Below, piece after piece: positions 1 through 5,344 of a DNA stretch of 5,463 bases. Every line of letters starts with the position of its first letter. Position 1 is the stretch's first letter. The stretch covers positions 1-5,463 of the forward strand of contig JASHXW010000306.1 of NCBI GenBank assembly GCA_030043395.1, given 5' to 3'. A program made the position numbers and the translations under genes. The DNA is from Streptosporangiaceae bacterium. Its GTDB lineage: Bacteria > Actinomycetota > Actinomycetes > Streptosporangiales > Streptosporangiaceae. The notes beneath the pieces are model-generated. The model searched no databases. It was not told the DNA's origin and worked only from the letters and a program-made list of their open reading frames with translations.

Positions 1-128
1 GCGGCGCGGGCCAGCCCGGCATCGCCGAGCGCGGCAACCAGGTGAACGGGAAGGCCCGCCGAGCGCAGGCACACGGTGCGCCACAGCGCCCAGTGCGCCG
101 TCAGCCGCACGAGATGCGGCGCGAGCGT
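1..128 (-). other. Start of a LanB-type (lantibiotic dehydratase / PEARL N-terminal-like) domain, truncated by window edge
   Basis: Residues about 1108-1149 of the NRPS, after the carrier domain and a disordered-looking linker, read APHLVRL, then W-x2-W (W1120, W1123), then CLRSAGLP (1127-1134) and a Leu/Ala-rich helix ending GDAGLARA. The pattern of a short HLVxL strand, WxLWR and a (V/L)RxAG(F/L)P helix matches what I recall from the opening of actinobacterial proteins annotated as lantibiotic dehydratase (Lant_dehydr_N). Those enzymes use aminoacyl-tRNA either to glutamylate Ser/Thr before elimination or, in PEARLs, to add amino acids to a peptide. I see none of the expected starts of C, E, TE or reductase domains. 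About 40 residues is little evidence and no catalytic residue is visible, so this is a moderate call. Confidence 0.5.
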
Positions 129-3100
129 GGCGGCCTTATCCGGCTGGGCCCGTGGGCTTGCCACGCGGTAGGCGCTGCGGTCCCGGCGCCGGATGCCCGC
201 CGGCCCGGTTGCCGACCGCGGCTCGGGAACGCGGACCTGGCCGGCCGGGCGCTCGGATTCGATGGCCGTGGCGCATGCGGCGAGAGTGGGAGCCTCGTAG
301 AAGGCGGCCAGGCGCAGTTCGACGGCGAACTCATCACGTATGCGGAACATCAGCCGCGCAGCCGAGAGCGAGTTGCCGCCGAGTGCGAAGAAACTGTCCT
401 CGCGGCCGACGTTACCCGCGCCGTCAGCCGGCAGCAGCAGTCGCCAGATATCGGCAAGGCGCTCCTCTGTGTCGCCGCGTGGCGGCGCGGCTGGCGCTCG
501 GACCTCCCGCTCAGGCGGTGGCAGCGAGCTGCGGTCGACCTTTCCGTTGACGTTGAGAGGGAACCGGTCAACCGCCCTGAATCCGGTTGGCACCAGGTAC
601 TCCGGCAGCCGCCTCGCGACGAAGTCACGCAGTACTGACGGCCGCAACGTGGCAGCATCCACGCCATCCGCTGGCGTCACGTAACCGACCAGGTGCCGCT
701 GCTCACCCTCGCCCGCCACGACGACGACCGATTCCCGGACTCCCGGATGCGCGCGCAGGACGGCCTCGACCTCTCCTGGCTCGACCCTGAACCCGCGGAT
801 CTTGAGCTGATTGTCCTTTCGGCCAGCGAATTCAAGTATCCCGTCCGCGCGCCAGCGAGCCAGGTCCCCGGTCCGGTACAGGCGGGTGCCGTGGCCGGCC
901 GGGTCTGGCACGAATGCGCGCGCCGTCGCCGCGGCGTTGCCCGCGTACCCGCGTGCCAGGCCGTCCCCGCCGGCGTGCAACTCGCCTGTAACGCCGATTG
1001 GCGCTGGCCGCCCGCGCTCGTCGAGGACGTGCACCGTGGTGTGCTGGATCGGACGGCCGATGGGCACCGTCGGCCCGATCTCGGCCGGGTCGCTCATGAC
1101 ATGGCAGGCCGTAAAGGTCGTGTTCTCAGTCGGGCCATAGCCGTTAACCAGAGGCAGGCCATGGCGTGCCGTGAGCACGGTGCGTACCGTGTCCGGATTG
1201 AGCACGTCGCCACCCGCCAGCACCACAGGGACGGTCGCGACCGAGTCGAGGTCGGCCTCGGCAAGCTGATGGAACAGTCCGGCGGTCAGCCAAGCGACCG
1301 TGACACCGCCGCTGCGCAGCACCGACGCTATATCCGCCAGCCCGAGCGGGCCGGGCGGCGCGACCACCACCGTGCCGCCGGTGAGCAGCGCGCCCCAGAT
1401 TTCCAAAGTGGAGGCGTCGAATGCGATGGGGGCCATCTGAAGCAATCGCTGCCCCGGGCCAAGCGGTGCGAAAGTCGCCTGGCTAATGAGGCGGATAACG
1501 GCGCGATGCGGCACGGCAACGCCCTTCGGCACGCCGGTGGAGCCAGAGGTAAAGCTGACATAGGCCAAGCTCAGCGGGTGCGAGACAGCTGGCGGCGCCA
1601 CGTGCTCATCGGCAGAGAGAGCCGGCTCGGCGTCCATGCGGATCGTCTCTATGCCCGGGGAGTTGGCATCGGCGGTTCGCGCCGTGGTCAGCATGAGTCG
1701 CGCGCCAGCCGCTGAGATCATCGTGGCCACACGCGAGGCAGGCGTTCCCGTCTCGACGGGGAGGTAGGCGCCGCCGGCTTTCAGAACCGCCAGCAGTGCC
1801 GTGACCAGGCCGATGCCCCGCTCGATCGAGATGGCGACGGGCACGTCCGTGCTCACGCCACGCCGGCGCAGCAGCCATGCCAGCGCGTTGCTGCGCTGGT
1901 CGAGCTCGGCGTACGTCACCGAGGTAGAGCCCAGCACCGCGGCAGTCGCCTCCGGGTGAGCGGCGACCTGGGCTGCGAACAGCTCGGGGATGGTGGCGTT
2001 GGCCGGGTAGCCGGCCGAGGTGCGATTCCACCGGCGCAGGACGGGCGCTTCGGCTGACCTGCCGAGGTCCAGGTCGCCGAGGGACGTCAGCAGGTTGGTG
2101 GCGAATTCGGTCAGAGTCGCGCGGAGCTGACCGAGCATCCGCTGCGGCGAGCCTTCGGTGAACCTTCGGCCGTCCCAGTGCGCGGAGATGTGGATCTGCG
2201 GCTCGTCGAATGCGCAGAAGGTGAGCGGATACGAAGGCAACCGGTCGACCCTGGCAGCGCTCAACCCGGTGGCGGCGCTGGTCAGTCCCGTCTGCAGCCG
2301 GTGCCGGTCGAACATGACCAGGCTGTCAAGCAACACGGTGTCGGCGGGCAGCCCCGCCCAGGCCAGTACTGATCTCATCGGCGTGAGCTGGTGCTGCCTG
2401 ACCTCGCGGATGCCATCATTCACCGCGGCCAGCAGGTCGCGCACGGACCATTCCTCGTCGACGCGGACCCTCAATGGCACGGTATTGACCAAAGGGCCGA
2501 TGACGGCCTCCGCGCCAGGCATGCTGCCATGACGCCAGGAACGCGTCACGGCCAGGACGACATCACTGACGCCGCCGTAGCGTGAGCGCAGCAGGGCCCA
2601 GGCGGCCGTGACCATCGTGCTTGGCTTAAGCCCGGCAGCTGCGGCAGCCTGGTGGATCAGCTCGGAGTCGCGGCGCGCCAGCACGGTTTCGGCCTTCATC
2701 GGCTCGGCGCCTCCCGGCGCGGGACTGCTGAGATAGCCAGGCAACGGTTGCGGTTGCACGGTGCCGGCGAGGTAGTCAGCCCAGAACTGCTTGGAGCCAG
2801 CCTGGCCTGCCGACTGCCACCATTGCACGAACTCGTGAAACGGTGGACGTGGCGGGTGACTCACGACGCGGCCCTCGCGACTCGCCGCGTACGCCGCGGA
2901 CACCTCTTCGACGAGCAGCCGCATCGATCGTCCGTCAAGCAGGGCGTGATGGAAAGTCAGCACCGAGCGGTGCGCCGGGACATCGCCGCCTGGCCGGCCG
3001 GCGGCCCCGACCCGGCGCAGGACCGTCAGGCGGACCAGCGGTGCCCTGGTCACGTCGAACACCTCGCGCCGGTCGGCCCGCAGGAACGACTCGAACGACT

Positions 3101-3449
3101 CGTCTGGCCCGCTGGCTGGCGGCGGCGGCAGATCGCGCCAGCGGATGTCGATCAATGCGTCGGGATCGACCACCTGGAGTAGCCCGTCGCCGTCAAGAAG
3201 GAACGCGGTGCGCAGTACCGGATGCCGCCGGGCAGCATCCTGCCAGGCCGCCTCGAACGAGTCCCGCTCGAGCGGGACTGACCAGTCGAGCGTGGCCTGG
3301 ATGACGTCGACGCCGTCATCGGGAAAGCGCATGTAGTTCAGGATCATCCCTTGCTGAGCTGGTAAGACGTCACCGCCCAGCGGCAACCCGGCTTGTGTCA
3401 CTGCATTCTGTGTCACTGCATTCGGCGAGGCAGCGAGGCGATCTCCCAT
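1..3449 (-). CDS. NRPS module C-A-PCP with a probable LanB-like C-terminal domain (partial)
   Basis: The frame is open from ATG 3449 to the window edge, giving 1149 visible residues; the C-terminus is missing. The condensation domain (about 25-440) shows LPAQQGM near its start, RHPVLRTAF, the catalytic HHALLDG (167-173) and IGPLVNTVPLR (317-327). The adenylation domain (about 480-975) shows LKAGGAYLPVE (556-566), TSGSTGVPKG (634-643), GYGPTE (770-775), TGD (860-862), GRKDNQLKIRGFRVEPGE from 876 and the A10 NGKVDR with K970. The carrier domain has LGGNSL with Ser1027 as the phosphopantetheine site. A Pro/Arg/Ala-rich linker (about 1067-1109) follows, then a segment unlike any usual NRPS domain. 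Inferred pocket residues are D678, A679, L682, W720, V743, A745, G770, T778, F779 and K970 (DALWVAGTFK), close to Val-type codes. No clear Shine-Dalgarno precedes the ATG, so translation is probably coupled to mbtH. The condensation domain lacks an upstream carrier in this window, so its donor must come from elsewhere. Confidence 0.93.
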   Translation of the reverse strand, partial: MGDRLAASPNAVTQNAVTQAGLPLGGDVLPAQQGMILNYMRFPDDGVDVIQATLDWSVPLERDSFEAAWQDAARRHPVLRTAFLLDGDGLLQVVDPDALIDIRWRDLPPPPASGPDESFESFLRADRREVFDVTRAPLVRLTVLRRVGAAGRPGGDVPAHRSVLTFHHALLDGRSMRLLVEEVSAAYAASREGRVVSHPPRPPFHEFVQWWQSAGQAGSKQFWADYLAGTVQPQPLPGYLSSPAPGGAEPMKAETVLARRDSELIHQAAAAAGLKPSTMVTAAWALLRSRYGGVSDVVLAVTRSWRHGSMPGAEAVIGPLVNTVPLRVRVDEEWSVRDLLAAVNDGIREVRQHQLTPMRSVLAWAGLPADTVLLDSLVMFDRHRLQTGLTSAATGLSAARVDRLPSYPLTFCAFDEPQIHISAHWDGRRFTEGSPQRMLGQLRATLTEFATNLLTSLGDLDLGRSAEAPVLRRWNRTSAGYPANATIPELFAAQVAAHPEATAAVLGSTSVTYAELDQRSNALAWLLRRRGVSTDVPVAISIERGIGLVTALLAVLKAGGAYLPVETGTPASRVATMISAAGARLMLTTARTADANSPGIETIRMDAEPALSADEHVAPPAVSHPLSLAYVSFTSGSTGVPKGVAVPHRAVIRLISQATFAPLGPGQRLLQMAPIAFDASTLEIWGALLTGGTVVVAPPGPLGLADIASVLRSGGVTVAWLTAGLFHQLAEADLDSVATVPVVLAGGDVLNPDTVRTVLTARHGLPLVNGYGPTENTTFTACHVMSDPAEIGPTVPIGRPIQHTTVHVLDERGRPAPIGVTGELHAGGDGLARGYAGNAAATARAFVPDPAGHGTRLYRTGDLARWRADGILEFAGRKDNQLKIRGFRVEPGEVEAVLRAHPGVRESVVVVAGEGEQRHLVGYVTPADGVDAATLRPSVLRDFVARRLPEYLVPTGFRAVDRFPLNVNGKVDRSSLPPPEREVRAPAAPPRGDTEERLADIWRLLLPADGAGNVGREDSFFALGGNSLSAARLMFRIRDEFAVELRLAAFYEAPTLAACATAIESERPAGQVRVPEPRSATGPAGIRRRDRSAYRVASPRAQPDKAATLAPHLVRLTAHWALWRTVCLRSAGLPVHLVAALGDAGLARA
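3260..3279. repeat. 20-bp perfect palindrome inside the condensation-domain coding sequence
   Basis: The plus strand reads AGTCCCGCTC followed directly by its reverse complement GAGCGGGACT, centred on CTCGAG. It lies about 170 bases into the NRPS gene and encodes part of VPLERDSF. With no loop it would form only a strained hairpin in RNA, but as double-stranded DNA it is a symmetric site. In high-GC coding DNA chance is a real possibility. Confidence 0.8.
3394..3423. repeat. Perfect 15-bp tandem duplication in the NRPS N-terminus
   Basis: The unit TGTGTCACTGCATTC (plus strand) occurs twice head to tail at 3394-3408 and 3409-3423 with no mismatch. In the NRPS frame it encodes NAVTQ twice (residues 10-19), in the short leader before the condensation domain. 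The unit is five codons long, so the frame is kept. It is also lower in GC than its surroundings. It looks like a recent slippage duplication in a flexible segment. Confidence 0.9.
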
Positions 3450-3458
3450 CCGGCGAGG

Positions 3459-3683
3459 TCAATCGGCGCTGGCCTGCTCGTGGTCGCGCATCCAGCGACG
3501 CAGCGACGCGGGCCGCATGTCGGTCCAGGTCTCATCGATGTAGGCGAGGCACTCGTCCTCGGTGCCGGTGAACCCGTCTCGGCGCCAGCCGGCAGGCAGC
3601 TCCCGCTCCGCTGGCCAGATGGAGTACTGCTCCTCGTCGTTGACCACCACGGCGTGCAGCCGGGCATCTGGCGTGTCAGGCAT
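3459..3683 (-). CDS. MbtH-like protein (NRPS adenylation-domain chaperone)
   Basis: This 74-residue protein has the family's normal length and nearly all its signature residues: [10 protein letters not shown] (15-24), PAGW (30-33), an ECLAYI segment (44-49) and [10 protein letters not shown] (53-62). MbtH-like proteins are small soluble partners that bind the A domain of certain NRPSs and are often needed for their solubility or adenylation activity. Its ATG overlaps the TGA of the adenylating enzyme (TGATG, one shared base), and its TGA is nine bases before the NRPS start. MbtH and NRPS are in the same reading frame, so one stop codon and three codons are all that keep them from being one protein. 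The likely partner is the NRPS A domain immediately downstream. The family assignment is secure; that the NRPS needs it is inference. Confidence 0.97.
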
Positions 3684-5344
3684 CAGCTGCTCCCTTCGGC
3701 AGCGGAGGCGCCCGCCCCGGCCAGCAGCTGCTCGCGCATGATGAACTTCCGGACCTTGCCAGTGGGTCCGACCACGATCTCGCTGTCCGGGATGGCCATG
3801 ACCCGTTGCGGCACCGCGGCCGTCACCTCGCCGAGCGCGGCGCGGACCTCGCCATCGCGGTCACGCGCGGGATCTGCGTCCGGTGCAAGAACCAGCAGCA
3901 CGTCGATGACCAGCTCGCCGTCGTCGCCGCGGGCCGCGAGGACCGTGCAGTCGCGGACGTCCGGGCAGCGCTTGAGTATGCGCTCCTCGGACTGCGCGGT
4001 GTAAAGCCAGTTCCCGTCGCCGAGATCGACCGCGTCGCTGACCCGGTCCATGTGGTAGAAGTAGCCGTCCTCGTCCCGGTACATGAGGTCACCGGTCAGG
4101 TAGTAGCCGTTGAGGCGGGTGCGGAAGTAGTTCACCGAGTCGTTCCAGTAGCCCAGGGCCAGCGTTGGCGACTTCATCGCGACCATTCCTACCTGCCCAG
4201 TCGGCACCTCCTGGCCGGTCTGCGGATCCACCAGGATGATCTCGGCGAAGGGGACCGGCTTGCCGACGCAGCGATCGTAGTGATCGCTGTCGAAGCGGTG
4301 GCTCATCTGGAACCCGCCGTAGCCCATCTCGGTCGAGCCGAGTGTGTCGTTGAACCGGGAGCCCGGCAGGCTGACGATCCCGTCCTTGCCGATGGCATGG
4401 TGGCTGCCGACCGCCACGAGACGGCGGATGTGCGCTTCGTGCGCGCAGTCCCCGCTGTTGGACCAGAAGCGAACCGAGCTGACGTCGCGTGCGGTGAGGT
4501 CGAAGCGGGCTAGCTCTGCCCACGTGACGGCGAAGCCGAAGACCGCGGTCGGGCGCCAGCGCTCGATCGCGTCGATGATCACTTCGCCGCTGCGGGCGAA
4601 TGCTCCGCCCTGCAGCGACAGGCACAGCAGCTCGTAACCGTTGCACAGGGCCTCGTTCACGATGATGACGCCGGCCGTGTGGGCCTGCGGGAACGCGGAC
4701 ATCTCGCGAACGGGCCCGTGCTGGCGCGGCTCGGTCAGCCGGGACGCGCGCACTGCCGCGAAGAGGCCGTGGTGCGAATGCACCACCGCGGCGGGAAGCC
4801 GCGTCGTCCCTGACGAGTGGGTGATCACGACAGGATCCTGCGGGTGGTGCCGGAAGTGGGCCGGCGCCAGGGACGGATCCCCCGTGCCGAGTTCTGCGGC
4901 ATCGCCGATGATGGGCGCGCCGAGATCATGCCCGGCAATCTCCGGATGCTCGGCGTCGGTAATCACCCCGACGCACCGCAGCCGGCGGATGTACTCCGCG
5001 GCTATCTCGGTTGGCATGCCGCCGCTCATCAGGGCAGGTATCGCCCCGAGCCAGGTCAGCGCGAGGAAGTTCAGTATCACGTCAGCCGCTGAGGTGACGT
5101 AGATGGCGACCGGGTCACGCCGGCCTATGCCGTGCCTGGCGAACCACTCGGCCCGTGCTGCTACCCGCTCCGTGAGCGTTCGCAACGACAGCGGGGTCCA
5201 CGCCGGGATCCCGTCGACGTCGGTGTCGAACGTCACCCGCGGCATGTCCATGTCGGCACCGTGCTCGGCAAGCCGCAGCAAGACGTTGCCGGCTCCCAGC
5301 TGCTCATCGGCGGCAAGAACCGCCCGAAGGTTGGTCGTGCTCAC
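3683..5344 (-). CDS. Stand-alone adenylate-forming (acyl-AMP ligase / acyl-CoA synthetase-like) enzyme
   Basis: This is a 553-residue, full-length member of the ANL superfamily (acyl-CoA synthetases, NRPS adenylation domains, luciferases). Such enzymes activate a carboxylic acid with ATP to an acyl-adenylate and pass it to CoA or a carrier protein. Visible motifs are a phosphate-binding loop [12 protein letters not shown] (175-186), LGSTEMG (335-341), YLTGD (415-419), the hinge-region MDRVSDAVD (432-440) and a C-terminal PTGKVRK (527-533) whose K530 matches the catalytic A10 lysine. The loop is unusual: the common TGxPKG pattern reads TRLPAA, so glycine is Arg182 and the usual lysine is Ala185. 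There is no carrier domain and no membrane segment, so it should be cytosolic. The GTG start is set by a strong ribosome binding site five bases upstream. The stop shares one base with the mbtH start. In this context it probably activates an acyl or aryl acid for the adjacent NRPS; the substrate cannot be read from sequence. Confidence 0.9.
3690..3696 (-). promoter_or_regulatory. Ribosome binding site of the mbtH-like gene
   Basis: The minus strand reads AAGGGAG, six bases before the ATG at 3683, within the last codons of the adenylating enzyme. Together with the TGATG stop/start overlap it supports the ATG as the true start and suggests coupled translation. Confidence 0.7.

Follow-up and report, generated by a model that had tools for sequence, protein, structure and literature searches.

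We analysed a 5,463-bp stretch of DNA from a Streptosporangiaceae bacterium (GenBank assembly GCA_030043395.1, contig JASHXW010000306.1), which we refer to in its entirety as the window. It contains a gene that joins a complete module of a nonribosomal peptide synthetase (NRPS), in one reading frame, to the start of a domain resembling LanB dehydratases and peptide aminoacyl-tRNA ligases (PEARLs). We put at roughly one in two the probability that this protein forms the first module of its NRPS line and carries, behind its peptidyl carrier protein (PCP) domain, a built-in PEARL-type ligase that acts on the free carboxylate of the tethered intermediate, a proposal built on comparisons of sequence and predicted structure. 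A single protein of this kind probably forms peptide bonds by two distinct routes.

A complete NRPS module continues in frame into a LanB-like domain

The fusion gene (3..3449, minus strand), which we define from its open frame, its Pfam domains and its full-length relatives, runs without interruption from position 3449 to position 3 and encodes 1149 residues before the window edge cuts it, with the frame still open. Pfam places Condensation at residues 29-468, AMP-binding at 491-835, AMP-binding_C at 893-970 and PP-binding at 996-1062. On the minus strand these give a condensation (C) domain at 2046..3365 (PF00668, E = 9.8e-50) with the active-site motif FHHALLDGR, an adenylation (A) domain at 540..1979 (PF00501 and PF13193) with the specificity residues DALWLGGTFK, and a PCP domain at 264..464 (PF00550, E = 1.6e-11) with an intact serine motif, FALGGNSL. 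By its domains and its active-site motifs HHALLDG and GGNSL, the window encodes a complete C-A-PCP module, as an initial annotation of this DNA had read it.

Behind the PCP domain lies a linker rich in proline, arginine and alanine (126..263, minus strand), with an RRDR motif at 177-188 that is common in fused relatives, and then the first ~40 residues of the LanB/PEARL-type domain (3..122, minus strand). The initial annotation had likened this tail to LanB enzymes because the frame is uninterrupted and contains the motifs HLVRL, W-x2-W and LRSAGLP, all of which are present within ~40 residues after the linker. Residues 1101-1149 scored 63.8 bits against a family LanB-domain profile made with the window excluded (best of 200 residue shuffles, 4.9) and 35.9 bits against a profile of 68 non-fused LanB-like rows (best of 200 shuffles, 5.5). 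A Pfam scan gave no match on the ~40-residue piece. By its profile scores the tail is LanB-like far beyond chance, and the proposed fusion is borne out by full-length relatives, in which the LanB-type domain is ~780 residues long; Pfam found PF04738 in the four that we scanned (P0004, P0009, P0056 and P0108). No condensation, thioesterase or reductase fold and no early stop was seen in its place in the relatives examined.

The domain is of the PEARL type

Residue roles have been described for the PEARLs BhaB7 and TglB (in part in PMC12945691 and PMC11962472). From an alignment of 182 rows, which excludes LanB pieces shorter than 700 residues from the protein search or 550 from genomic loci, we counted 106 fused and 68 stand-alone NRPS-type rows, omitting 8 stand-alone protein-search rows that fall within the fused clade. 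Five residues (D1579, E1599, H1601, E1845 and R1847, in P0009 numbering) are invariant in 106/106 fused and 68/68 stand-alone rows. By order and spacing, four of them (D1579, E1599, E1845 and R1847) correspond to the BhaB7 residues for ATP-dependent carboxylate phosphorylation (D558, E575, E813 and R815), and Y1209 and R1212, present in all 106 fused rows, correspond to its tRNA CCA-end residues Y205 and R208. In residue kinds for ATP, Mg and the tRNA CCA end, the fused domains of the relatives are thus like the PEARLs TglB and BhaB7 (BhaB-C-Trp) of ribosomally synthesized and post-translationally modified peptide pathways.

We compared these positions with five LanBs and two split LanBs from ten genomes, each with the elimination domain PF14028 in the same frame or an adjoining one; five of the LanB-like loci L080-L087 served as LanB rows. 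None of these seven profile-aligned rows retains D1579, E1599, H1601 or R1847, while all of them keep Y1209, R1212 and R1731, the tRNA-end residues being common to LanBs. E1845 is non-discriminating (4/5 LanBs and 2/2 split LanBs). Further positions constant in the fused rows are R1099 (3/5 LanBs), F1780 (1/5) and K1788, where 45/68 stand-alone rows have R and all five LanBs have L. One fused row has G in place of R1731, and Y1209 differs in 3/68 stand-alone rows.

Foldseek identified the LanB glutamylation-domain fold, as in the class I enzymes NisB, MibB and TbtB (re-alignment covered Foldseek's own matches only). When PDB sequences were searched with a profile of alignment A2, the single match was insignificant (E = 0.17), so the relation to solved LanBs rests on the fold. 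Unlike class I LanB dehydratases, the domain has no elimination domain with it: PF14028 was absent from the four relatives scanned and from the surroundings of fused genes in seven genomes. PF14028 occurs in 9/10 genomes searched, and in the seven with a fused gene it lies off that gene's contig except in G005, where the two are at least 4.7 Mb apart along the record and still more than 1.2 Mb apart if the chromosome is circular. Among the relatives PF14028 is therefore neither fused nor next door, a statement that does not extend to the window's missing part.

We reject a true LanB dehydratase, since no PF14028 was found and the PEARL-type residues are present. Because these residues are present and PF14028 is not near the fused genes, the domain is assigned to the PEARL type, by test in the relatives and by extension in the window, whose own phosphorylation-site residues lie beyond its edge. 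The initial annotation had offered a LanB or PEARL-like domain; its PEARL half holds and its dehydratase half does not.

Fused relatives and their architectures

A protein search with window residues 1040-1149 returned 112 homologues, for which home-made profiles gave the architectures C-A-T-LanB (63, T being the PCP domain), A-T-LanB (17), C-LanB (12), LanB (8), T-LanB (3), A-T-C-A-T-LanB (2), A-T-C-A-T (2), A-T (2) and three single variants; the shorter ones may partly be contig-end cuts. A bacterial genome collection yielded 155 relatives, reduced to 79 distinct loci. Thirteen of these have the whole C-A-T-LanB in one frame, one has A-T-C-A-T-LanB (L003), two are fusions cut by contig ends (L004 and L005) and one is split over two frames (L014). 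The hosts of these 17 loci are Micromonospora, Salinispora, Saccharothrix and uncultured Streptosporangiaceae and Pseudonocardiales. The co-occurrence of the two parts in related genomes, raised in the initial annotation, is thus found as a recurrent in-frame fusion. An assembly artefact is ruled out, because the fusion occurs in cultured isolates (in L012 on a chromosome record of 6.9 Mb) and across 63 protein clusters. The split gene, in Saccharothrix luteola (L014:9674-15941), consists of two overlapping frames (C-A and T-LanB), which reflects a frameshift or a sequencing error.

The nearest described system is the threopeptin cluster of Stackebrandtia nassauensis, in which the PEARL-like enzyme SnaE works on an NRPS-polyketide synthase product, and is proposed to act in trans, joining aminoacyl-tRNA to a free carboxylate at the cost of ATP; the portions of the paper on which we draw leave its substrate, carrier-bound or free, undecided (PMC11212132). 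Like the window's fusion, SnaE is a PEARL-type protein with no elimination domain expected, annotated as a lantibiotic dehydratase and encoded together with an MbtH-like protein in an NRPS cluster. Unlike it, SnaE is a separate protein that partners a ureido-forming A-T-C-A-T protein (the comparison was made without the SnaE sequence), whereas the window gene encodes a single chain that opens with a C domain of non-ureido type (FHHALLDGR), with no A-T pair before it. In Micromonospora wenchangensis (L003:10034-17407), A-T-C(urea)-A-T-PEARL forms one frame of 2457 residues. By its domain order, this arrangement amounts to SnaA and SnaE of the threopeptin pathway joined in one chain.

Twelve proteins of ~1255-1330 residues (P0045, P0053, P0056, P0062, P0063, P0068, P0069, P0073, P0074, P0080, P0084 and P0104) are C-PEARL chains with no A or PCP domain between, and 11 of the 12 have the RRDR linker.

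Of 120 genomes drawn from the family to which genome G012 belongs, 19 had a PEARL-like match at E = 1e-60, with high identity (74%) in G012 only and 32-40% in the rest. One genome has three tandem PEARL-like matches (G082:C38:4840-11659). Some Streptomyces loci (L027, L056, L063 and L075) have two LanB-like genes with an AMP-binding gene beside or between them, and others (for example L034, L035, L051 and L073) have LanB pairs with no AMP-binding gene called.

Condensation front ends and adenylation codes

The motif HHAxxDGR is present in 44/63 C-A-T-LanB chains from the protein search and in 14/14 from the loci and the window. Most of the remaining chains deviate by one or two letters (for example FHHALLDGH), and five have no motif call. 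The ureido motif EHHxxHDG occurs behind an A-T pair in three fused proteins (L003_08, P0020 and P0095, the PEARL part being short in the last two), and P0105 and P0106 have a ureido front end and no LanB profile match. The window lacks this SnaA-type motif, and a ureido-forming C domain is ruled out there by its motif FHHALLDG, its profile score and its position in the tree. Against a profile of the fused C domains, ten ureido C domains scored 108-139 bits (median 118), barely more than ordinary C domains with their median of 112 (range 65-464).

The code DALWLGGTFK is common to 54/91 listed fused A domains, and the modules that follow have DILQLGLVYK and similar codes; the residues were read by script at the presumed specificity positions, and the final K was added by convention. 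We take the window's code to be Val-like, not Ser/Thr-like, and that of the following modules to be Gly-like.

Origin of the fusion

All 106 fused rows and the 8 stand-alone ones form one clade (114/182 rows, support 1.0, midpoint root). Its sisters are L018_10 and L020_11, which are separate LanB-like genes adjoining a C-A-PCP gene on the opposite strand. In the C-domain tree, the sister group of the fused proteins is formed by these adjoining C-A-PCP genes, whose C domains carry FHHSVLDGR (joint node 0.96, each side 1.0). Because both trees pair the fused proteins with the L018 and L020 neighbours, this C type and this LanB type were partners prior to fusion. The RRDR pattern (R[RTS][DE]R) precedes LanB in 107/118 chains with a preceding C, A or T domain, the window included, and is present in 7/81 chains with LanB alone.

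Operon context

The fusion is the last of three genes in a minus-strand operon in the window, after an AMP-forming acyl ligase of the ANL superfamily (3683..5344, minus strand, 553 residues, PF00501) and an MbtH-like protein gene (3459..3683, minus strand, a 74-residue frame) directly upstream of it. Homologues of the latter lie upstream of the fused gene in 15 of 15 loci (L001-L003 and L006-L017) and in L149, L004 and L005 being cut. In a DNA search of plasmids only the MbtH stretch matched (3 records, one of the matches being on an annotated MbtH family gene). The fetched flanks reached 10 kb at most and fell short of 3 kb in L008 and L016; within them a simple gene caller, which gave some antisense frames, placed no further NRPS gene before the fused one on the same strand, and C-A-T genes follow. 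By its position, the fused gene probably encodes the first module of its NRPS line.

The nearest fetched relative with upstream sequence is L149, on a second contig of the L004 genome, to which the window is 80% identical in the ligase, 87% in MbtH and 67% in the fusion. Upstream of the fusion, at L149:1053-6773, its operon has genes for a small carrier protein and a second acyl ligase, a ketosynthase-like gene that also matches the cispentacin AmcF model at half its cut-off, and genes for 4-hydroxyphenylpyruvate dioxygenase and a PhyH oxygenase. A thioesterase gene and a candidate ABC transporter, the latter assigned from its position and size by analogy with L001, belong to the operon too. 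This gene content is consistent with a starter acyl chain that is produced in trans and accepted by the N-terminal C domain.

An ANL ligase precedes MbtH and the fusion in the window (3683-5344), L149 (13535-15190) and L001 (7893-9536), with 72-80% identity. Its nearest NCBIfam model is the 3-aminoavenalumate diazotase AvaA6, at 429.5 bits, which is less than half of the cut-off of 975, and a role as diazotase is unsupported. In Micromonospora sp. C31 an enolase-superfamily gene scoring above the o-succinylbenzoate synthase cut-off lies close upstream of the fusion (L002:7076-8272).

A proposed mechanism and its alternatives

The relatives have the C-A-PCP module, the glutamylation fold, the PEARL residues, no elimination domain, and a fused gene placed after MbtH and before further NRPS genes; the substrate, the tRNA and the timing we infer. 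In the proposed mechanism, which we judge the most economical, the C domain would load an acyl starter onto the aminoacyl-PCP, giving an acyl-aminoacyl-PCP intermediate that keeps a free carboxylate. The PEARL domain would phosphorylate this carboxylate with ATP, the amino group of an aminoacyl-tRNA would attack it, and the tRNA would then be hydrolysed off. The chain would grow at its starter end by the PEARL domain and at its thioester end by the downstream C-A-T modules. Such a bidirectional line in one polypeptide, with aminoacyl-tRNA growth at one end and NRPS growth at the other while the intermediate is carrier-bound, is a more tentative idea than carboxylate activation on the carrier itself.

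Several points weigh against this mechanism. The correspondence with BhaB7 is one of order and near-constant spacing, without a PEARL sequence in the alignment, and the LanB positions come from one profile alignment each, with local reliability taken as given. The window's C domain is non-ureido, so the free carboxylate of threopeptin is not explained here, and the presumably Val-like A domain offers no side-chain carboxylate. How the PCP lies relative to the active site cannot be read from the predicted model (linker confidence score, pLDDT, below 50). The PCP domain is not indispensable in cis, because the 12 C-PEARL proteins have neither it nor an A domain. Finally, a Pfam scan of the L003 protein lacked PF04738 at E = 0.001, although the genome search has it at 1.2e-12.

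The strongest alternative, which we consider unlikely though worth weighing, places the reaction after release: a free-standing thioesterase would free the peptide acid, and the PEARL domain would activate its C-terminal carboxylate and add one residue. This is classical PEARL chemistry (as presented in part of PMC12945691), both L149 and L001 have a thioesterase-like gene upstream, and no thioesterase domain shows in the final C-A-PCP protein of the L004 contig. However, the PEARL domain belongs to the first module rather than to the last one or to a separate protein, and in the ureido fusions the obvious target is the starter-end carboxylate.

The initial annotation had suggested instead that aminoacyl-tRNA attacks the PCP thioester directly, without ATP, releasing or extending the chain. 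The fusion does set the PCP beside a tRNA-binding domain, and NRPS-like proteins with tRNA-dependent partners are known (livipeptin, PMC10548850, in the part cited). Attack on the thioester is nevertheless not supported, because the residues for ATP-dependent carboxylate activation, needless for a thioester-acting enzyme, are invariant in 106/106 fused rows, and release at this module is improbable because, in the fetched loci, no NRPS gene was seen before the fused one and more C-A-T modules lie behind it; we regard this route as quite improbable overall. We give almost no weight to a true LanB glutamylase aiding dehydration of carrier-bound Ser/Thr, which shares the fold and the tRNA residues but is already largely refuted by the missing PF14028, the residues that seven LanB rows lack and an A code that we take not to be Ser/Thr-like, nor to a catalytically dead scaffold, for which we found no support, given active-site residues invariant over a divergent clade.

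Relation to known systems and implications

Our literature search, largely outside subscription papers, found no study of a fused PEARL-NRPS protein; an NRPS-linked PEARL was already known from one study and its preprint. TglB and BhaB7 extend ribosomal carrier peptides, whereas the carrier of the window family is probably the PCP. The livipeptin system is similar in having a tRNA-using transferase that partners an NRPS-like protein and is fused to one in relatives, and differs in that the transferase is an L/F transferase of another family and the NRPS-like protein is a C-minus one without a C domain (both as given in part of PMC10548850).

The conserved C-A-PCP-PEARL and A-T-C(urea)-A-T-PEARL chains argue for PEARL work on the carrier, and the fused chain is a self-contained protein for testing such carrier-bound action. 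If the mechanism is true, non-ureido starters, that is, acyl groups with a second carboxylate, would be a second route to a carboxylate end besides the chain-reversing urea. If confirmed, these proteins would make peptide bonds in both directions on one carrier, which would aid the prediction of products from genomes and the engineering of enzymes.
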